From Deltaproteobacteria bacterium (GTDB lineage: Bacteria; Desulfobacterota; Desulfobacteria; Desulfobacterales; Desulfobacteraceae), in contig JAADHV010000127.1 in the NCBI GenBank assembly GCA_013151635.1, positions 1 through 64,000 of the forward strand: a DNA stretch of 64,000 bases, read 5' to 3'. Both the position numbers and the translations under genes were made by a program. The notes beneath the pieces were generated by a model. It was not told the origin of the DNA and did no database searches. It saw only the letters and a program-made list of their open reading frames with translations. Position 1 is the first letter of the stretch, and every line of letters starts with the position of its first letter. Of the stretch, positions 1 through 63,236 are shown piece by piece.

Positions 1-6
1 TTTTTC

Positions 7-543
7 TTAAGAAAATTTACCTGCAAGGAAATTTGCCATGGTCTTAAATTCTGCGGTCTCATTTTTTTCCACAATATCCCTTGACCGGTTTGACACGTCA
101 TGCAGGTTTTTTATGGTTTTTTGAAACATGTCAAACTGGTTTTCCCGGCTTTCCAATGACAGGTCAAGGTATTCTTTCACTGTTTTAAAAAGATGGTTGC
201 TGCCGATTTTTTTAATTTCATAGGTCAGAGTTTCTCCCGGGTATCGTTCCATCATAGAGGGTGTTATCACCATTAAATCATCAATAATGGCTTCTATTTC
301 CCCAGTCATTTCAGAGGCAAGGTCTTTGTCTTTTCTCAAAAGGATATTCAGTTTTAATAAAGAATCCAGGATGGCTTTGTACTCCCGGTCAGGGCTTGCT
401 TCAGGCCGGGATGCGTCAGGAGCAGGAGGCGATGTGCTGCCTTTTGCTTGCACATTTTTTCCTTTGGCTTTAAGATTTTTCATTATAACGCCAAAACCGA
501 TAACGGCAATAAGAAAGATGAGTGCTGCAATGATTATAGTCAT
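7..543 (-). CDS. Membrane-anchored hypothetical protein
   Basis: I do not recognise a family. The protein of about 178 residues begins with one hydrophobic segment (about residues 4-21), then a Pro/Ser/Ala-rich linker, then a mostly helical, charged region that would sit on one side of the inner membrane. The start is taken at 543 rather than 573 because AGAAGGAG lies about six bases before this ATG and there is nothing comparable before the upstream in-frame codon. It follows the six-gene operon on the same strand, but a hairpin at 699-721 and about 185 bases separate them, so it is probably a separate unit. No catalytic motif is visible. Confidence 0.6.
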   Translation of the reverse strand: MTIIIAALIFLIAVIGFGVIMKNLKAKGKNVQAKGSTSPPAPDASRPEASPDREYKAILDSLLKLNILLRKDKDLASEMTGEIEAIIDDLMVITPSMMERYPGETLTYEIKKIGSNHLFKTVKEYLDLSLESRENQFDMFQKTIKNLHDVSNRSRDIVEKNETAEFKTMANFLAGKFS

Positions 544-698
544 TGTGTTGCTCCTTCTGGTTAAGGTAATCAATCAACAATAGTTTGAAAAATAATGCAA
601 AATTATATTTTTACAAGGCTAGAAATTCTTAAAACCTGGCAACAGTCTATATGGGGTGTTTTAAAAAATCAAGAAAGTAAGATAATCTTTAAAAATTA

Positions 699-721
699 CC
701 TTTGAAAGGTAACTTCAAAGG
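699..721 (-). terminator. Probable terminator of the six-gene operon
   Basis: On the minus strand, just after the stop of the urea-transporter/M23 gene, CCTTTGAA and TTCAAAGG form an 8-bp stem with a 7-base loop, followed by TAATTTTT. The U-run is interrupted, so termination may be partial. Confidence 0.45.
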
Positions 722-728
722 CTGGCCA

Positions 729-2828
729 TTACGTTTCAATTCTTTTCAGGTAAACTTCCTTGTGGCCTGCCACAAAGGTGAGTTTTGTAAGACCTTTATC
801 AAAAGTCATCCATCGTTTGGCTATGGGAACTCGGGTGTTTTTAAAAATTTTAGAAGATAATGTAAGCTGGTTGCCCTGTGATTGAAACGTATGGGTTGAG
901 CGGACAAAATTTTTATTTAAAAAAGGAAGAATCGGTTCCCATAAAAATGCTTTAATGCCGAAAAGCATATCAGAATAAGGAATATTTTTTTGCCACCTTA
1001 ACCGCTCGTCCGTATAGAATGGTATTTTATCAATGGCAAGGCTCATCAAGTGAAGCCCGCTGTTTTTCCCACCGACGTATTCAATAAATGAAATAGACCG
1101 TTCATTTTTCAAGAAAAACAATCTGTCTTTATACAATGATGATTCAATAAATAAAATTCCTTTTGAATCCATATCGCATGTCCAGAGCTCTGTATATTTT
1201 TTAGAATTTACCCGGAGCTCGTATTTTTTGGTTTCACCCAGTTCAAATCCAATAATATCTTTTAGATTGATATCAACCGGTATATTTGAAACAATCTGCT
1301 TTTCTTCAGGTATACCAAGAGGGACATACTCATCATGGTTTTTTCTTTTTACTAGATAATCTGAAAAATGTACCGGGATTGCAGGGGCGCCCGCCACCCC
1401 TGCTGCCTGGAACTGCAAATGCAGATGGGGATATGGGGCAAGCCCGGAACTGCCGGTATTTCCAATATAATCTCCTGCTTTAATAATGGTGTTGGGATAT
1501 ACAGATATTTTTTTTTGTCCCAGGTGGCACAGGATAGAAAATAAAGTGGGATGATGCTGGATAATCACATAATTGCCCCAGGTGTTATCAAGGTTTGTCC
1601 TGGTGACAGGGTTGTCAGGTGTTGAGGATTCAACCGCATAAACAAGTCCGTTCCCGGGAGACGTCACAGGCTTGTTGAAACAAAAATGATCTTCAAGATC
1701 AACTCCGTTATTCCTGTAGGAGCAAAAGTTTTGGTCTGTTACAATGAAATCCAGCCCCCATTTATATATTCCCTGGTGGGTATGCCTGCCGTCAATGCCT
1801 TGACTGACAAACCACCATCCCATAAAAGGCAGAATAAAATTTCGATCCGTCTTTCCTGAATTGTCTATACCTTTTATAAAGCGTTTATAGTTTTCTTCAG
1901 GAGAACCGGGAATAAAAATTCTGAAAAGGCCTGTTTGAATAAAATTATACTGCATGGCGTAGATAAAAAGCAGGGTCGCAATATTGAATGAGGCAGTCAG
2001 GGAGGAGATGTTGTAAATTGAAAAATACCGGGTCAGTACATCTCCGATAATGGCGGTAAAAAGTGATGCAATAACTGCCATTAAAAGGCTTAGCGGCCCA
2101 GGGGTAAAAAAAATGCCGCCAATGGCAATAGCCGTAAGGATAGCATTAAATCCATCGTTGATCACAAAGCCATAATATTCAGGGACAATATACGCAAGCC
2201 CGATGATGGCTGCAAAAGAAAGGATGGAAATGAACAATATAATTCTTGAATAATAAACCAGGGCGGCAACAACGAGCAATCCTGAGATTACATTGGGGCT
2301 GAAGATGATATGCCCCATATTTTTTAAAAAGGTTTCAGCAAGAAAAGGGAATGCATATCCTCCAAATTCTGGAATTGAAAGCAGGATAGCGTTTTTCCCG
2401 GTTACTGCGCCGGAAAGGATGACAATCCAGGTCATTAAGACAAAAGGAATGCTTAAAAACGGCAGAGACCGCTTCTGGCACAATTCGGTTACCCATGTTT
2501 TAATGACCATTAATAAAATGGAAAATAAAGTTACAAGAAGGATGATCTTTACATGTGAGATCCGGCTGTAGAGGCTTAAGGCCATCCCGAACAGGATTCC
2601 GTTAAATCCAAAAACTCCGGCCCTTATCTGTATTTTTTCATGGCCAAGCTTACAGGCAAAAAAATTGATAAATAAAGCGCCTATCAATCCATTAAACCCT
2701 GCGAACGGATGAATAAATGTCGATATCAAAAGCATGGCCCCTAATCCCCGGTCTTCTGAAAACAGGATTTGGGAATAACTGTGCAAAATACCATCAAGAA
2801 AAAAGGAATGATTTCGGTCAAAGGTCAT
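729..2828 (-). CDS. Urea-transporter domain fused to M23 metallopeptidase
   Basis: Residues 1 to about 300 look like a bacterial urea channel (UT family): many membrane helices, the paired signatures GVFGFNGILFG (about 71-81) and GFNAILTAIAIGG (about 226-238), and LPFLSIPF (about 122-129). The second LPxxTxPF copy is degenerate (SLTASF, about 276-281). Residues about 335-490 look like an M23 peptidase: H351 and D360 in the HQGIYKWGLDF segment, and the HLH pair at 468-470, would be the zinc ligands. The C-terminal about 200 residues are soluble and beta-rich with no family I know. It is the last gene of the operon, starting four bases after the decarboxylase stop, so it is probably translationally coupled. 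The fusion suggests a membrane protein with a zinc-hydrolase or binding domain, but the substrate is unknown; urea conduction is an inference from the fold. Confidence 0.8.
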   Translation of the reverse strand: MTFDRNHSFFLDGILHSYSQILFSEDRGLGAMLLISTFIHPFAGFNGLIGALFINFFACKLGHEKIQIRAGVFGFNGILFGMALSLYSRISHVKIILLVTLFSILLMVIKTWVTELCQKRSLPFLSIPFVLMTWIVILSGAVTGKNAILLSIPEFGGYAFPFLAETFLKNMGHIIFSPNVISGLLVVAALVYYSRIILFISILSFAAIIGLAYIVPEYYGFVINDGFNAILTAIAIGGIFFTPGPLSLLMAVIASLFTAIIGDVLTRYFSIYNISSLTASFNIATLLFIYAMQYNFIQTGLFRIFIPGSPEENYKRFIKGIDNSGKTDRNFILPFMGWWFVSQGIDGRHTHQGIYKWGLDFIVTDQNFCSYRNNGVDLEDHFCFNKPVTSPGNGLVYAVESSTPDNPVTRTNLDNTWGNYVIIQHHPTLFSILCHLGQKKISVYPNTIIKAGDYIGNTGSSGLAPYPHLHLQFQAAGVAGAPAIPVHFSDYLVKRKNHDEYVPLGIPEEKQIVSNIPVDINLKDIIGFELGETKKYELRVNSKKYTELWTCDMDSKGILFIESSLYKDRLFFLKNERSISFIEYVGGKNSGLHLMSLAIDKIPFYTDERLRWQKNIPYSDMLFGIKAFLWEPILPFLNKNFVRSTHTFQSQGNQLTLSSKIFKNTRVPIAKRWMTFDKGLTKLTFVAGHKEVYLKRIET

Positions 2829-2832
2829 TCAT

Positions 2833-4254
2833 CTACCCGATAATTTTTTTTTTGTCTGGCACCATTTTTAAATGTTTTGGAAGCAGTTTGGAATTTTTTC
2901 CATTAGTCTTCCGGGCAAAACGTTCTGGCAGGTGATCCTTTTGATGGAGGTATGAAACATCTTCGGCTTCCCTTATAATATCCACTTCTTTTAACATGCC
3001 AATCATCACGATAGCCGGGCGCATTTTAATGAACTGCATCCACTGGGTGGTGTTGTATGCGCCAAAAGGCCGGATAACCAGGTTGTCCCCTTTACTGAGT
3101 ACAGGCAGTTTGATCAGGTCCCTTATTACATCGATCTGCATGCATAAGGGGCCGAATACGACATGGTCTTCTAAAAAAGTACTTTTTTTCTGGACGGGAA
3201 GCATTTCCAGATCATACCAGAAACTGGTTACCATGATGTTTACCCCTGCATCCAGGACAAGTGCGCGAAGCCCGGTCGGCAGCCTTTTGGTTGCTTCCAC
3301 TGTTGTAATCAGGTATCCTGCTTCGTCTATTATCGCGCGGCCGGTTTCCAGGAACAGTATGGGCAGATTGTCTTTTGGAAAGGAGTTTAAAAGAACACTG
3401 CAGATGGCTTCAGCAAAAGAATCAAAATCAGGTGCCAGGTCGGTTGTGGGCAGATAGGTGGATTTAAGCCTGTTTCTAGATGCAAACCCTCCGCCGATGT
3501 CCATATATTTTAAATCAATTTTAAATTTTTCTTTCATCCTGCCGGCAAACCCACATAAATTCAAAACCGCCTGTTGGTAAAACCGGGGCTCAAGAATAAA
3601 GGTGCCTATATGGGAATGAAGCCCGGTAAGTTTCAGCTTTTTGCTGGACATGATCCGTTCTGCAGCTTCATCGGCCTGCCCGTTTTCAAGGTTAAAACCA
3701 AACCGGTCCCAGGCCGGATACATTCCAGTATCCATATTGATACGTATGCCGACTTCCACTGTCCTGTTTAAAGAGTCTGCAATTTTTTCCAATAAGTAAA
3801 CCTCTTCAAAATTATCAATGTTAATGATAGTGCCTTGCTGGACTGCTGTTATTAATGAGGGTTCAGGTTTATGAGGACCGTTGTATATGATTTTTTTGCC
3901 TTCGACCCCTAAGTTTATAGCCATTTCATATTCATACTCCGATACAACTTCTGCAAAGGAACCTTCATCATGCATAACAGCACAAATGGCCTTTTGATAA
4001 TTAGTTTTATATGACCATGCGATCTGGACTTTCGGGTATCTAAGTTCAAAAGCCCTTTGTAATGCCGCATGCCTTTTCCGGATGCTAGCTTCGGAAAATA
4101 CCACCAGGGGGGAACCGTGATTTTTAACCAGCTGCTCTACTGATATACCGTCAATCTTTTCGCAACGTTTCTGGCCGGAAGGTCTGCCAAATTCGTTCAT
4201 TGTGCCTATGGTGTGCCTTATGATACTTGGCTTTTCATAACTTTCTTTACTCAT
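2833..4254 (-). CDS. PLP-dependent decarboxylase, DapDC/OrnDC fold
   Basis: This 473-residue protein has the alanine-racemase-like fold of group IV decarboxylases (diaminopimelate, ornithine and arginine decarboxylases). The Schiff-base lysine is in AWSYKTN (about residue 83), HSHIGT and DIGGGF follow as phosphate and PLP contacts, ETGRAI matches the usual EPGR segment, and GPLCMQID matches the GPxCxxxD segment that carries the second active-site cysteine. The substrate cannot be read. The gene overlaps the ATP-grasp gene by eight bases, and AAGGAG precedes its start. Being joined to an ATP-grasp ligase and a PqqD-like protein argues for biosynthesis of a modified amine or peptide rather than lysine synthesis, so I do not call it lysA. 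Confidence 0.85.
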   Translation of the reverse strand: MSKESYEKPSIIRHTIGTMNEFGRPSGQKRCEKIDGISVEQLVKNHGSPLVVFSEASIRKRHAALQRAFELRYPKVQIAWSYKTNYQKAICAVMHDEGSFAEVVSEYEYEMAINLGVEGKKIIYNGPHKPEPSLITAVQQGTIINIDNFEEVYLLEKIADSLNRTVEVGIRINMDTGMYPAWDRFGFNLENGQADEAAERIMSSKKLKLTGLHSHIGTFILEPRFYQQAVLNLCGFAGRMKEKFKIDLKYMDIGGGFASRNRLKSTYLPTTDLAPDFDSFAEAICSVLLNSFPKDNLPILFLETGRAIIDEAGYLITTVEATKRLPTGLRALVLDAGVNIMVTSFWYDLEMLPVQKKSTFLEDHVVFGPLCMQIDVIRDLIKLPVLSKGDNLVIRPFGAYNTTQWMQFIKMRPAIVMIGMLKEVDIIREAEDVSYLHQKDHLPERFARKTNGKNSKLLPKHLKMVPDKKKIIG

Positions 4255-5305
4255 AATGCAGTTCTCCTTCCATGTTCATTATTTCAAGTTGCTTCATATC
4301 GAAAACAAGATCGCATGTTCCCCTGTTATAGATAATGCCTATTTTATGGCTTTTATTTTTTTTTACGGGTTCTCCTTTTGCCATCATAACTGTCAAATAG
4401 GGCAAATTAATCCCGGCGGCTTTTGCCAAATAAATCCAGGCGGGAAACCGGTTGTTTATTTCGATCAGATAATAATCCCGGGACTCTTCTTTTTTAATGA
4501 TCTCAAGCTCAACAGGCCCCTGCCATTTTGTGAGTAAAAAAAAACGATCCAACAGGCTGGCGATTTTTTTATCCTCTATCGTAACAGCAGCCCACCCCTT
4601 GCCCTTATCCGTAATAATGAGTTTTCTCATGGGGACATACCCGATGCACCCGCCTTTCCCGTCGCCCAGGGCAGCTACATCAAGCTCAACTCCTTTAACA
4701 TGTTTTTGCAGGATGATGGGCATTCCCCATTTTGATATGATTTTTCTTGCAAATCTATAAACCTCGTCATAGGAATAAGCCAGATATGCATCATAATAAA
4801 TTCCTTTTACCATCAGGGGGAATCCGATTTTTTCAATGCCTGTGCTGACCTTTTTAAGCTCCTTTTCAACGGAGGTCTTTGGTACAAGGATATTGGATTT
4901 TTCACCTAGTTCATGGAGTTTGACCTTGGAGCACAACTCAAATTGTTCCCTGGTAGGGAAAAATGTCATGATTCCTTCTTTATGGAGGTCCTTTCTAATA
5001 GAAATAAAATTAAATAATTCTGCATCCAGGGTTGGGACAATCACATCCATGGGTGTTTTCTCATGAATTTTCAAGATTCTTTCCAGAAGATTTGCAGGGC
5101 CCTCAGATGGATAGGGCAGCAAATATACATGTTTGAAAAATTGTTTTTCGTAAAGCCCCGCATCCATAGAATCATACCCGAATCCAATCCCGGTAAAATG
5201 ATTTTTAAAACCTTCCTTGATACATCTCATCACAGCGACTCCCGGAGCAGGGCTGTCCGTCATGTTAAGTCCGGTTACTCCAACGCAGATATTAGAAAAA
5301 TTCAT
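4247..5305 (-). CDS. ATP-grasp family ligase
   Basis: A 352-residue enzyme of the carbamoyl-phosphate-synthase-like ATP-grasp type, which joins a carboxylate to an amine or other nucleophile through an acyl phosphate. The N-terminal pre-ATP-grasp region has VIVPTLDAE; the ATP-binding core has PLMVKG, an EL..A strand, and a C-terminal EINNRFPAW segment whose Glu and Asn would bind Mg-ATP. Its ATG overlaps the TGA of the upstream PqqD-like gene (ATGA), and its own stop lies inside the start of the decarboxylase gene, so the three products are made in a coupled way. The substrate is unknown. A peptide or amino-acid ligase role is inferred from context only. Confidence 0.85.
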   Translation of the reverse strand: MNFSNICVGVTGLNMTDSPAPGVAVMRCIKEGFKNHFTGIGFGYDSMDAGLYEKQFFKHVYLLPYPSEGPANLLERILKIHEKTPMDVIVPTLDAELFNFISIRKDLHKEGIMTFFPTREQFELCSKVKLHELGEKSNILVPKTSVEKELKKVSTGIEKIGFPLMVKGIYYDAYLAYSYDEVYRFARKIISKWGMPIILQKHVKGVELDVAALGDGKGGCIGYVPMRKLIITDKGKGWAAVTIEDKKIASLLDRFFLLTKWQGPVELEIIKKEESRDYYLIEINNRFPAWIYLAKAAGINLPYLTVMMAKGEPVKKNKSHKIGIIYNRGTCDLVFDMKQLEIMNMEGELHYE

Positions 5306-5553
5306 GTATTTTCCACCTTGAATCCCATTTTCCTCATTAATGATACAAATTCTCTTATATCTTCCTTGGCATCCTTTTCTTCAACATCATATTCCTTTTC
5401 CAGAAATGCAGGCGTATCCTTTAAAGATGTTCCGGCCTGAAGCATTTTTACGAGACTTAAACCGGTTTTGTTTAATAAAAATGTCTGGCCTGTGGAAGGG
5501 TCAAACACAAAGCCTGTATCACTCACAGTAATACTTGTCAGCTGTTTTTTCAT
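5302..5553 (-). CDS. PqqD-like small protein
   Basis: An 83-residue protein with the pattern of PqqD-family peptide-binding chaperones: an early strand (TGFVFDPSTGQTFLLN), then LNKTG, a short helix with a GTS turn, and a C-terminal helix ending in a DIREFVSLMRKMGF-type segment. PqqD proteins bind leader peptides of ribosomal peptide precursors and hand them to modifying enzymes. Here the partner would be the overlapping ATP-grasp gene rather than a radical SAM enzyme, which is absent from the operon. No precursor peptide gene is visible in the 12-base gap upstream or elsewhere in the operon. AAAGGG lies eight bases before the ATG. Fold assignment is fairly good; function is open. Confidence 0.7.
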   Translation of the reverse strand: MKKQLTSITVSDTGFVFDPSTGQTFLLNKTGLSLVKMLQAGTSLKDTPAFLEKEYDVEEKDAKEDIREFVSLMRKMGFKVENT

Positions 5554-5565
5554 AAAGAGCCCTTT

Positions 5566-8001
5566 TTATTTTTTTAACTTTTTTAATACTTTTAATCCTG
5601 CCAGGGAATTTGCATACCCTGGTGTACGCTTTAATGATTCCTTAAAATTAATTTCGGCTCTGGGTGCATCGCCTATTTTCAGATAGCTCCACCCCATACC
5701 GTCATAAGGTGCGGCCCATATATCATCATCTTTATGCAGTTTGACAAATTTTTCAAATATTTCAAGGGATTTGGAATAATTTTTTTCATTATAATAGGAC
5801 CATCCAAGATCGTATAAAGATTTGCTGTATTTTCCGTACCCTTTTTCCGTTCCGGGAGACTGGGTAAGAAAGTTTTCAAGCAATTGTATTGCATTATTGT
5901 ACTGCTTATTAGCAAAATAAATAAAGCCAAACAGCATATCAAGATCAGGATATTCCACATCAATGAGCTTTGCATTCTTTAAGGCATCAGGATACAGGCC
6001 AGAATTATAATAGGACCAGGCAAGGGTAATATACAGATCCTTGAGACCAGGGTTCTCCTGAACCAGGCTGGTAAACGTATCATTATCTACAGTCTTGGGA
6101 AAAATATTAATGGCGGTTATGATACTAAGCCTGCCCTCATTCACTTTGCCAAGTTTGACCTGTGAATATCCGGTTCCCCTGTATGGTTCAGCAATGCCCG
6201 GATACAGCCTTATAGCCTTACTGAACTCCATAAGGCTTTCACTGAATTTTTTAACATGATAGAGGCTCCATCCATAGGCAATGGCAGCATTAACATCCAT
6301 GGGGAACATCTTGACTGCCAGTCCCAATGTGTCTGCGGCCTTATTATATTTTTTTTCTCCATAATAAACGTATCCGAGTCCCAGGATGGCATCAAAATCC
6401 TTTCTGTCCTGTTTGATCAGCCAGTTAAAATACCGGCCAGCATCTTTATATTTGTCAAGTTTGAGATAGCTCCAGCCAAGTCCCCTTTTTGCAGACAGTT
6501 TTTCATCTTTTGTTGCATCTTTCCCGGCCATTATACGGTCAAATTTTTTAATGGATTTATCAAATTGTGACAAATAATAATATTTCCATCCTTCTCCGGA
6601 CCTTCCTATCCTTGCCTTGCTCACTGCGGCCAGGCCGTTATAGGCATCATTGTAGGCCGGATCTGCTTTTAAGGCAGCACGAAAATATTTTTCTGCATTA
6701 TCATATTTTTTTTGTGAATAATAAATCCATCCAAGGCCGTTGTTTGCATCAGGCCATTTTGGGTGAAGTTTTATTGTTTTTTTAAAATTTGCCATGGCAT
6801 TGGCATAATCCTGTTTGTAAAAATAAGCCCACGCCATGGTGCTTCTGGCATCACTGTGGAATTTATACGGCAGGCCCGTTCTGGTATAGCCGGTCTCAAA
6901 AATCGCAGGCAGGCTGTCATTTTTGGATAAGGATTTTTGACAATATGCAATGGATTCGTCATAATTTTTAAGGCTATATGCAGCATAACCTGCCCCTCTC
7001 AGCAGGACTGCATTTTCAGGGTCATATTTCAGCCCTTTTTTAAAAACCTTGAAACTTTGATCGGCAAGGCCGGTAAAATAAAGAGCCCACCCAAGATCCA
7101 TGTACAGGGGTTTATATTCTTTTTCATTTTTTAATATATTATAAAATTCATTTGTTGCAAGATAACCCGGCAAAAGGGATACCACCGCATAAAACTGCTC
7201 AACAGCTGATTTTTTTTCACCTTTTTTATGTAATGCAAGGCCCAGTCCGTAATGTGCATCCGCGATATAGGGGTTAATGGCAACCTGGTTTTTAAAACCC
7301 TTTATGGCATTTTTATTGTCCCCTTTTTTAAATTGGCACCAGGCAATTAAAGAAGCCACGTCATATTGGGCCGGATACAGTTTTAATGACTCCTTAAATG
7401 CTGAAACAGCCTGGTCATAGTTTTTTTCATAATACGCTATAAGCCCGAGTCCTTTGTGCGCATCGAAATTATCTTCAAGGTTCAAAGATCTGTTGAAATA
7501 ACGTCTGGCCTGGAAGCGGTCATTTTTTTTGTAATAAGTGTACCCCATCTGCAGGTAAACCTTATATAGCTCTTTTTCGGGCATCAACCTGTTCTGGTCA
7601 TCTAAAATAGCCTGAAATGCTTTTATGGCACCATCATAATTTCCTGTGTTACTTTTAGCCAGGGCAGCATTGAAATTTCCATAAATTTTTGCATTAACAG
7701 CAGCAATGCCCTGGGTTGCACCGGTATGATAAGGTTGTTTGCGAAGAATACTTTTGAACATGGCCCGGGCTTTTTTCAGCTTTCCCATCTGAAATTTGCA
7801 CCATGCCATTCCGTTAAGGGCCGTCATGTCACCGGAGTCTTTGATATAGGCATTTTCAAACTTGGAATATGCTTCTAAGTATTGCTTTGCCTTATAAAAT
7901 TTGCCTGCTGTTTCAATATCCTGGGCCCAAAGAGGTCCTGCAAAAAAAACAATCAAAGCCAGAACAAGAATATATTTTGGAAGATATCTGATATTAGACA
8001 T
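5566..8001 (-). CDS. Secreted multi-TPR protein
   Basis: An 811-residue protein with a signal peptide (about 27 residues, ending PLWAQ) followed by tandem tetratricopeptide repeats over nearly its full length. Repeats with the pattern A...G.GW.Y...K.Y..A...F..A....P recur about every 34 residues, with the variant GLGWSYxxxxKYxxA prominent. TPR arrays act as scaffolds for protein or peptide partners, here most likely in the periplasm. It lies between the TPR lipoprotein and the PqqD-like gene, in the same direction with gaps of 11 and 12 bases, so it belongs to this operon. AAAGGAG precedes the start. No enzymatic domain is visible. Confidence 0.85.
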   Translation of the reverse strand: MSNIRYLPKYILVLALIVFFAGPLWAQDIETAGKFYKAKQYLEAYSKFENAYIKDSGDMTALNGMAWCKFQMGKLKKARAMFKSILRKQPYHTGATQGIAAVNAKIYGNFNAALAKSNTGNYDGAIKAFQAILDDQNRLMPEKELYKVYLQMGYTYYKKNDRFQARRYFNRSLNLEDNFDAHKGLGLIAYYEKNYDQAVSAFKESLKLYPAQYDVASLIAWCQFKKGDNKNAIKGFKNQVAINPYIADAHYGLGLALHKKGEKKSAVEQFYAVVSLLPGYLATNEFYNILKNEKEYKPLYMDLGWALYFTGLADQSFKVFKKGLKYDPENAVLLRGAGYAAYSLKNYDESIAYCQKSLSKNDSLPAIFETGYTRTGLPYKFHSDARSTMAWAYFYKQDYANAMANFKKTIKLHPKWPDANNGLGWIYYSQKKYDNAEKYFRAALKADPAYNDAYNGLAAVSKARIGRSGEGWKYYYLSQFDKSIKKFDRIMAGKDATKDEKLSAKRGLGWSYLKLDKYKDAGRYFNWLIKQDRKDFDAILGLGYVYYGEKKYNKAADTLGLAVKMFPMDVNAAIAYGWSLYHVKKFSESLMEFSKAIRLYPGIAEPYRGTGYSQVKLGKVNEGRLSIITAINIFPKTVDNDTFTSLVQENPGLKDLYITLAWSYYNSGLYPDALKNAKLIDVEYPDLDMLFGFIYFANKQYNNAIQLLENFLTQSPGTEKGYGKYSKSLYDLGWSYYNEKNYSKSLEIFEKFVKLHKDDDIWAAPYDGMGWSYLKIGDAPRAEINFKESLKRTPGYANSLAGLKVLKKLKK

Positions 8002-8012
8002 AATATGCTCCT

Positions 8013-9101
8013 TTATTGTTGGTAGGCTGAATTTTTAAGTTCTTCAAGCCCGGCTGTTGAACTTATATAATCAGGATACAGGTCAAGTGCTTTTTTAAAC
8101 GCCTCTTTAGCCTCGCTGTCTTTACCCAGTTTCAGCATGCTCCAGCCAAGACCGTCATAACCGTCATAGGAAAGTTTGTTGAGCTTCAAACCAGCCTCAA
8201 AGCTCTTTTGTGCTTCCCTGTAGTTCAATTTTTTATATTGAGTCCATCCTATTGCTGTGTGGACTTCAGCCCATAAAGGATATTTCTGTTCCACTTTCCT
8301 AAAGGCATTCAAGGCCCTGGAATATTGCTTTTGTGTATAAAATTCAGATGCCCTGGCCATAGCAGTACGTTTGATATAGGCAAGGCTTGCCCTTCCGGCT
8401 GTTGCACCCGGATGCTTTGCATTCTGCTCAAGCCCTTTGTTAAACCAGAGGTCAGCATTGTTATAGTCTTTTTGTGCAAGGTAAACATTCCCAATGGCCG
8501 TAAGTGTGTCGGGATCAGGTTTTTCAGACAGTTCCAAAGATTTATTAAAATACTTGATGGCAAGAGGATAGTCTTTTTCCATAAATGCTATATACCCTCT
8601 GATGACATGATTATCAGCAGATTCAGGGTCTTTTTTAAATGCGGTTTTCAGATATTTTTTTGCTTGTTCAAGCTTTCCAAGTTTAAAATAATTATATGCG
8701 ATACCTTCAATGGCACCGATATGGTTTTTCTTTTTTTCGTGCATGGTTTCAAAGGTTTCCAGGGATTTTTTAAAATCATGCAGTTTGAATGTGGACCAGC
8801 CGATACCTTCAAGTGCATCAAAAGATTTTTTGTCCAGTTCTTTTAACCGCTCAAAAGACATTAAAGCTTCTTCATATCTTTCCAGCTTGAAATAGCACCA
8901 CCCTGCCATTAAAAGAGAGACTTGATGGTCTGGTTCCTCATTGAGTATATTCTCATAGTATCTGGCGCTCAGGGCATATTCTTTTTTATCAAAGTATTTC
9001 CACCCATTTGCCAGGTTGGCGCCAATGGACTTACATCCCGCTATGAAAATACTGATCATAAAAAAAACTAATATCAGTTTTATCCATTTGTTTTTAAACA
9101 T
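8013..9101 (-). CDS. TPR-repeat lipoprotein
   Basis: A 362-residue protein with a lipoprotein signal peptide, lipobox IAGC with the acylated cysteine at residue 23, followed by about nine TPR units (for example GWSTFKLHDFKKSLETFE and GLGWSMLKLGKDSEAKEAF). It would be anchored in the outer or inner membrane facing the periplasm. It is the first gene of the six-gene operon and shares the GWxxxKLxxxxEAxxxF repeat style with the next gene, suggesting the two arose from a common ancestor. GGGAGGGG lies two to three bases before the ATG. A possible -10 (TATAAT, 9123-9128 on the minus strand) lies upstream with no clear -35. Confidence 0.85.
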   Translation of the reverse strand: MFKNKWIKLILVFFMISIFIAGCKSIGANLANGWKYFDKKEYALSARYYENILNEEPDHQVSLLMAGWCYFKLERYEEALMSFERLKELDKKSFDALEGIGWSTFKLHDFKKSLETFETMHEKKKNHIGAIEGIAYNYFKLGKLEQAKKYLKTAFKKDPESADNHVIRGYIAFMEKDYPLAIKYFNKSLELSEKPDPDTLTAIGNVYLAQKDYNNADLWFNKGLEQNAKHPGATAGRASLAYIKRTAMARASEFYTQKQYSRALNAFRKVEQKYPLWAEVHTAIGWTQYKKLNYREAQKSFEAGLKLNKLSYDGYDGLGWSMLKLGKDSEAKEAFKKALDLYPDYISSTAGLEELKNSAYQQ

Positions 9102-53404: not shown

Positions 53405-53525
53405 ATTGCATGACCGGGATCGATCCACGACACAGAAGAATTCACTTATCGCTGCTTCCTTCCGGACCTGACGAGGTTCATGGCCTTCTGTTACGAGGCG
53501 ACCGATCAGAATAATCCGCACCCGG
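53405..53525 (-). ncRNA. ffs: Signal recognition particle 4.5S RNA
   Basis: Minus-strand sequence contains the universal SRP core GGTCCGGAAGGAAGCAGC (53451-53468), flanked by the helix CAGAAGG...CTTCTG and the outer pair GATCGG/TCGATC, as expected for the small bacterial form with the Ffh-binding hairpin. Boundaries are approximate. Complementary ends at 53379-53389 and 53527-53538 (11 bp with one bulge) may form a longer precursor stem. Confidence 0.9.
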
Positions 53526-55051: not shown

Positions 55052-55128
55052 TGGTCGGGGCGGAGAGATTCGAACTCCCGACATCCTGCTCCCAAAGCAG
55101 GCGCGCTACCAGGCTGCGCTACGCCCCG
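55052..55128 (-). tRNA. tRNA-Pro (UGG)
   Basis: The cloverleaf on the minus strand has acceptor stem CGGGGCG/CGCCCCG, D arm with AGCGCAGCCTGGTAGCGC, anticodon stem CCTGC/GCAGG with loop TTTGGGA (anticodon TGG), T arm GTTCGAATC and an encoded CCA. It covers 77 bases including CCA. Confidence 0.97.
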
Positions 55129-63067: not shown

Positions 63068-63143
63068 GGGCGATTAACTCAGTTGGGAGAGTGCAACCCT
63101 TACAAGGTTGAAGTCGCAGGTTCAAGCCCTGCATCGCCCACCA
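63068..63143 (+). tRNA. tRNA-Val (UAC)
   Basis: Acceptor stem GGGCGAT/ATCGCCC, anticodon stem CAACC/GGTTG with loop CTTACAA (anticodon TAC), T arm with TTCAAGC and encoded ACCA. 76 bases including CCA. Confidence 0.97.
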
Positions 63144-63158
63144 GAAAATACAGGTTCA

Positions 63159-63236
63159 GGGGGTGTAGTTCAGTTTGGTTAGAACGCTTGCCTGTCACGC
63201 AAGAGGTCGCGAGTTCGAGTCTCGTCACTCCCGCCA
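63159..63236 (+). tRNA. tRNA-Asp (GUC)
   Basis: Acceptor stem GGGGGTG/CACTCCC with one G-U pair, anticodon stem CTTGC/GCAAG with loop CTGTCAC (anticodon GTC), T arm with TTCGAGT and encoded GCCA. 78 bases including CCA. Cotranscribed with tRNA-Val, 15 bases apart. Confidence 0.97.

Follow-up and report, generated by a model that had tools for sequence, protein, structure and literature searches.

A conserved four-gene unit joins PqqD-like, ATP-grasp and PLP decarboxylase genes to a urea-channel and M23 peptidase fusion in distantly related bacteria

The window, by which we mean the whole stretch of 64,000 nucleotides analysed here, starts at a contig end and carries a minus-strand run of six open reading frames (ORFs) read from 9101 to 729. 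The first two encode TPR proteins recognized from ORF and Pfam evidence, each with a hydrophobic N-terminus: a lipoprotein-like protein of 362 aa (8013..9101) and a protein of 811 aa (5566..8001). They are followed, on the same strand, by a PqqD-like protein of 83 aa (5302..5553; PF05402), an ATP-grasp enzyme of 352 aa (4247..5305; ATPgrasp_Ter), a PLP decarboxylase of the alanine-racemase fold with 473 aa (2833..4254), and a 699-aa protein (729..2828) in which a urea transporter (UT) channel (residues ~1-322), an M23 peptidase (~326-505) and a LolA-like domain (~520-699) are fused, referred to below as UT/M23. The first-pass annotation had described six same-strand genes that overlap slightly or lie 4-12 bases apart, and the coordinates agree: the gaps are 11 (TPR/TPR), 12 (TPR/PqqD) and 4 bases (decarboxylase/UT-M23), and the overlaps are 4 (PqqD/ATP-grasp, ATGA) and 8 bases (ATP-grasp/decarboxylase). 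Its domain names also hold, each scoring over its curated Pfam cut-off (PqqD 39.0 bits vs 23.4, ATPgrasp_Ter 34.2 vs 29.1, Orn_Arg_deC_N 116.7 vs 23.4, UT 166.3 vs 25, and Peptidase_M23 47.7 vs 28.7), and, as it had stated, the run of six genes is not interrupted by any gene for a radical SAM protein, an HprK-type kinase or a peptide.

A terminator-like hairpin is located directly 3' of the UT/M23 gene (minus strand, 722-698), and this alone carries no evidence because the scan returned 12 such sites against 10.7 in shuffles. The DNA beyond the UT/M23 gene was read in the same-genus relative G020 (locus L006), in which the six-gene order is intact; there, at 6-5972, UT/M23 and a small OAD-gamma-like gene are followed by TelA, two genes that matched nothing in Pfam, then a DUF350 gene and one with a spermine/spermidine-synthase domain. 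Three relatives that lack the operon still have the small OAD-gamma-like gene next to a TelA-like gene, with a different opposite flank. No Rfam element was found beside the operon in the window or in L006, L031, L034 and L036; the Rfam matches were all within the window and comprise the bacterial small SRP RNA and three tRNAs (53411-53507 and 55055-55128 on the minus strand, 63068-63140 and 63159-63233 on the plus strand).

The nearest solved relatives of the PqqD-like protein are the lasso-peptide leader-binding proteins TfuB1 and TbiB1. It scores 17.2 bits against the PQQ biosynthesis model TIGR03859, under the cut-off of 46, and 35.0 bits against PqqD_rel_X of the HPr-rel-A system, which is exactly the cut-off of 35, with the HprK-related kinase absent among the operon's genes. 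Its C-terminus varies, which does not readily suggest a carrier of the LysW type. A peptide substrate, which the first-pass annotation had considered, did not gain a linked precursor: among 1616 short ORFs at 105 loci (a set containing the repeats L049/L037, L072/L147 and apparently L050/L151) no family was common to four or more loci, a comparison that would miss a precursor encoded at another site or one of highly variable sequence. The ATP-grasp enzyme retains K127, K167, E207, E268, E282, N284 and R286 as invariant residues and has 2pn1 as its top solved relative. Its top solved relatives are carbamoyl-phosphate-synthase-like, a label that spans many unrelated ligases and leaves the substrate unfixed.

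For the decarboxylase, assigned from Pfam, solved relatives and residue mapping, the best solved relative is the N-citrylornithine decarboxylase 7kh2 (274 bits), and LysA is the next named at 206 bits. The score falls under the cut-offs of both NCBIfam models compared, namely FslC/FigC (NF041039; 216.8 bits, cut-off 500) and LysA (TIGR01048; 201.8 bits, cut-off 297.9), while the lysA of the same genome, encoded elsewhere, reaches 357.6 bits with TIGR01048. Two more lysA-like decarboxylases occur in this genome (G000:C40:5382-6560 and G000:C10:4927-6132; 295.4 and 257.6 bits, under the lysA cut-off), one of which contains an internal TGA. PMC7857480 describes M355 of N-citrylornithine decarboxylase as standing in for the acidic residue by which the side-chain amine is bound, uses docking to propose H357 and R387 as likely contacts for citrate, and names citryl conjugates, carrier-bound glutamate (BtrK) and a modified peptide (MccE) as substrates within the clade. 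When these positions were mapped by alignment, the methionine beside the catalytic cysteine was present in all 84 decarboxylases (including the repeat pair L046/L006), and all 84 carried isoleucine in place of H357, glutamine in place of R387 and tryptophan in place of T330; T327 was threonine in 82 and serine in two, and Y331 was tyrosine in 79 and phenylalanine in five. Since the methionine is kept and both proposed citrate contacts are replaced, the side chain of the substrate is probably capped, and by a group other than citrate. The enzyme had been annotated as an amine-making decarboxylase; the fold stands, but the pocket does not look like that of a simple amine-maker of the ODC or LysA type, being of the N-citrylornithine-decarboxylase (FslC/FigC-like) type without the proposed citrate contacts.

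The UT/M23 protein was examined by Pfam and by fold comparison of a predicted structure (mean pLDDT 80.6), in which residues 1-322 cover the full urea-transporter fold (Z ~35) and residues 326-505 align to M23 enzymes (Z ~13). Against the NCBIfam equivalog urea_trans_yut it scores 102.5 bits, under the cut-off of 274.6. Among 82 UT sequences (which include the repeats L046/L006 and L049/L037) the pore phenylalanines are found in 80 (F23) and 74 (F176), and the position that we map to E187 of dvUT is alanine in 56. H351, D360, H435, H468 and H470, presumably the zinc-ligand and catalytic residues of M23 enzymes, are kept in all 82. Folded alone, the C-terminal domain reaches a pLDDT of 89.8; its LolA-type Foldseek match has an E value of 5e-5 but a TM score of 0.34, and Z values reach 8.5 for LolA (rmsd 3.4, 117 aligned residues), with ApoB, YmcC-like, MTP and KdgM entries scoring close. 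The predicted domain appears to resemble LolA-like half-barrels (LolA, LolB, YmcC and similar folds), with scores that are middling and tied. Three further observations concern this protein. In L148 (6770-8077), of the Myxococcales genome G489, a second M23 protein fits the UT/M23 profile at 332-520, without a UT part and with a signal-peptide-like start. Separate UT and M23 genes in L144 (7944-10198) were at one point taken as proof of a cytoplasmic M23 domain without a signal peptide, and this argument was dropped because a T run at the junction and an M23 frame that is open upstream make a frameshift more likely. An apparent 1168-aa decarboxylase-UT fusion in L152 was likewise rejected as a spurious frame in a GC-rich genome, only UT/M23 having matched and the decarboxylase region lying in another frame.

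The side of the membrane on which the peptidase lies was approached through loop charge. When the eleven loops were assigned to sides by the inverted symmetry of the fold, an assignment made after the charges had been seen, the mean charges over the 82 sequences were +1.4, +0.57, +0.73, +1.0, +0.89 and +3.28 for the loops placed inside and -0.15, -0.89, -0.12, -0.84 and +0.17 for those placed outside. All 82 sequences have a net positive charge in the stretch that follows the final membrane helix; just 11 have one in the loop joining the two halves. UT-B has both ends in the cytoplasm. Loop charge and fold together suggest that the M23 domain lies on the cytoplasmic side, which we regard as likely and well short of certain because M23 and LolA-like domains normally act outside the cytoplasm. 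The membrane UT/M23 protein of the first-pass annotation is present with both of its domains and belongs to the core, but its peptidase more likely faces the cytoplasm, a placement that can be disputed.

Among 97 close relatives the ATP-grasp gene was found in three genomes (its own, G020, and G095, which belongs to a different family), and 18 of the 395 genomes sampled in its own phylum matched, or 17 once the weak match L045 (G135; 1.8e-21), a lone ATP-grasp gene in another setting, was dropped and excluded from later counts. When 84,980 species of one collection were scanned with a single pattern and matches were confirmed at E ≤ 1e-3, at least 561 relatives were obtained, some of them possibly outside the ATP-grasp family. 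The best 80 of these carry titles that name Bacteroidota, Ignavibacteria, Myxococcota/Myxococcales, Deltaproteobacteria, Planctomycetota, Elusimicrobia and others, and are mostly metagenome assemblies; Mucilaginibacter, Flavihumibacter and Hymenobacter are among the genera named in the matched records. Within the phylum to which a Myxococcales record belongs, 11 of 112 genomes carry the ATP-grasp gene, the centre genome counted. A plasmid search with one ATP-grasp query gave no match, and PADLOC, which covers anti-phage systems, gave none for the four core proteins.

All four core genes, PqqD-like, ATP-grasp, PLP decarboxylase and UT/M23, occur together in 84 of 99 loci (19 plus the 80 best matches, with two repeats, L046 = L006 and L049 = L037). 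The trio that the first-pass annotation had singled out is therefore found together outside its own genome; the six-gene unit it had proposed is real and conserved, but the core has only four members, UT/M23 included, and the TPR genes are accessory. Fourteen of the 15 remaining loci reach a contig end, and the other, L005, holds the trio without UT/M23, which sits on a different contig of the same genome (L005/L140). In L078, one of the fourteen, no PqqD was detected, and the contig end is no explanation because the upstream DNA is present. Another locus, L042 (1783-3923), has two tandem ATP-grasp genes after PqqD where other loci have one. Given that the 80 loci are the closest matches, a phylum sample is the fairer test of linkage: in 296 Bacteroidota genomes (centre included), with each protein required at E ≤ 1e-60, ATP-grasp and UT/M23 were found in an identical set of 27, and in these UT/M23 always lies on the same strand, 1338-2800 bp downstream of ATP-grasp, an interval that corresponds to the decarboxylase. 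Pairwise distances of the three long core proteins correlate at 0.89-0.92 across the 80 loci (in which L049/L037 may remain), against ≤0.16 in permutations, and shared species history contributes to this correlation.

Around the core, the accessory genes vary. A TPR protein family of ~205 aa is found at 74 of the 105 loci; the two TPR proteins of the window are longer, and kinship drawn from TPR similarity is weak evidence because TPR repeats resemble each other. Response-regulator-like proteins lie nearby at 28 of 105 loci. Proteins that we call barrel-like, from sequence appearance and hydrophobic N-termini, form three groups at 35, 16 and 12 loci (63/105), which profile comparison unites (probabilities 96.6, 98.2 and 98.5); the short forms matched no Pfam family. 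In four genomes without such a gene at the locus (own, G020, G095 and G490) a search found none elsewhere, in a search run without a positive control.

Support is strong for the conservation of the unit and moderate for its mechanism. Since the four genes recur as a group in many bacteria that are only distantly related, they probably represent an unstudied pathway, one that we read as producing a small, amide-linked, decarboxylated compound and letting it out. The ATP-grasp enzyme would form an amide bond between a carboxylate and an amino acid, probably a diamino acid, and the FslC-like decarboxylase would then strip the alpha-carboxyl from the capped amino acid. Delivery of the substrate to these enzymes would fall to the PqqD-like protein, in the simplest case through a peptide scaffold that it binds and that is encoded at another site. 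The M23 domain, probably at the inner face of the membrane, might free the small product by cleavage, and the urea-channel pore fused to this domain might let the product cross the inner membrane, beyond which the TPR proteins and, in many species, the barrel-like protein may handle it. Because UT channels are known for passing urea-sized solutes, the size of such a product would be limited. The co-conservation of the genes, the predicted folds and the intact catalytic-type residues are observed; we infer the substrate, the order of steps, the scaffold and the direction of transport, and the complete reading, with ligation and decarboxylation on a scaffold, release by M23 and passage through UT, is tentative, to be given slightly under an even chance. 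It is supported by the gene co-occurrence and distance correlation, the FslC-like pocket, the resemblance of PqqD to leader binders, the whole UT fold, the kept M23 residues and the loop charges; against it stand the lack of a linked precursor, the normally extracytoplasmic place of M23 and LolA-like domains, the solute size of UT channels, the unlinked UT/M23 of L005/L140 and the undetected PqqD of L078. A modified, decarboxylated product handled at the envelope had been suggested by the first-pass annotation, and the parts do fit amide-bond formation and decarboxylation linked to the envelope, but a named product is not supported.

The FslC-like pocket, the barrel-like proteins at 63 loci and the failure to find a linked precursor at 105 loci would also suit a pathway to a free small molecule that needs no peptide scaffold and follows a siderophore-like or amine-conjugate logic as in rhizoferrin. 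Here a free diamino acid would be capped by ATP-grasp and the conjugate then used by the decarboxylase, with PqqD serving only as an adaptor that connects the enzymes and UT transporting either the product or a precursor. This would leave an M23 domain with all five residues roleless, does not account for a PqqD that resembles leader binders, and has to do without the citrate contacts and without an NIS synthetase among the operon's genes; we consider it a serious but improbable alternative. A decarboxylase acting on an N-carbamoyl, citrulline-like amino acid, with UT carrying urea or a ureido compound, is quite improbable: the UT fold with its pore phenylalanines, the capped non-citrate pocket and the carbamoyl-phosphate-synthase-like relatives of ATP-grasp are all compatible with a ureido product, but the last label is too broad to be specific, the position that we map to dvUT E187 is mostly alanine, and M23 and PqqD are left roleless.

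A further possibility is that UT is inverted and the M23 and LolA-like domains act in the periplasm on peptidoglycan or lipoproteins, to which an amine or peptide made by the cytoplasmic enzymes is attached. The usual extracytoplasmic site of both domains and the TPR and barrel-like partners with hydrophobic N-termini speak for such envelope modification, but the positive stretch after the last helix, set beside the inter-half loop, and the match of the UT part to the whole fold of UT-B, whose ends are cytoplasmic, argue against it, and we judge it unlikely. That the genes are mere neighbours without a joint function is very improbable; operons can contain unrelated genes and the unit is rare in close relatives (3/97), but ATP-grasp and UT/M23 share the same Bacteroidota genomes and UT/M23 is retained even when unlinked. 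Scaffold-borne synthesis with release by M23 remains our preferred reading. Its boldest form, a new kind of natural-product system found across several phyla, in which cytoplasmic scaffold-borne ligation and decarboxylation feed a peptidase-coupled urea-channel exporter that delivers a common, so far overlooked diffusible signal, metal-binder or amine conjugate, is doubtful.

No description of the four-gene combination was found in the PMC papers searched, a scope that does not extend to subscription papers and preprints, and in these papers the system is as undescribed as the first-pass annotation had supposed; the one paper returned for the combination was the review PMC10373908. A term search of PMC8939145 and PMC12710340 gave no match to M23, decarboxylase or urea, and one of PMC4431377 and PMC2922099 gave no match. 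Its presence in about one-tenth of the sampled genomes of two phyla (27/296, and 11/112 for ATP-grasp alone) points to an unrecognized small molecule, and it makes testable the substrate of a non-citrate FslC-like decarboxylase, the role of PqqD without a linked precursor and that of a urea channel bearing a peptidase.

Compared with known systems, the unit follows a biosynthetic logic already established, here arranged around a channel-peptidase protein that is unusual. It shares a PqqD-family protein, here closest to TfuB1/TbiB1, with the RiPP pathways that use such leader binders (lasso peptides, PQQ), but the operon has no radical SAM protein or cyclase and no linked precursor was found. 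In the butirosin starter pathway (BtrI, BtrJ, BtrK), BtrJ is an ATP-grasp ligase. According to PMC7857480, the decarboxylase BtrK shares this fold and takes an amino acid bound to a carrier; BtrK is a distant relative (~126 bits) and an acyl-carrier protein is absent among the six genes here. The decarboxylase comes closest to FslC of the Francisella rhizoferrin pathway (FslA/FigA and FslC/FigC), with which it shares the methionine next to the catalytic cysteine and the WSRFGF, GAYN and HIGT motifs, whereas the operon has an ATP-grasp enzyme in place of the NIS synthetase, adds PqqD and UT/M23, and has the citrate contacts replaced. As in urea transporters (dvUT, UT-B) and M23 peptidases, the UT fold is complete and the M23 residues are present; unlike in these, the two are joined in one fusion with a LolA-like domain, inside an operon with three biosynthetic-type genes.
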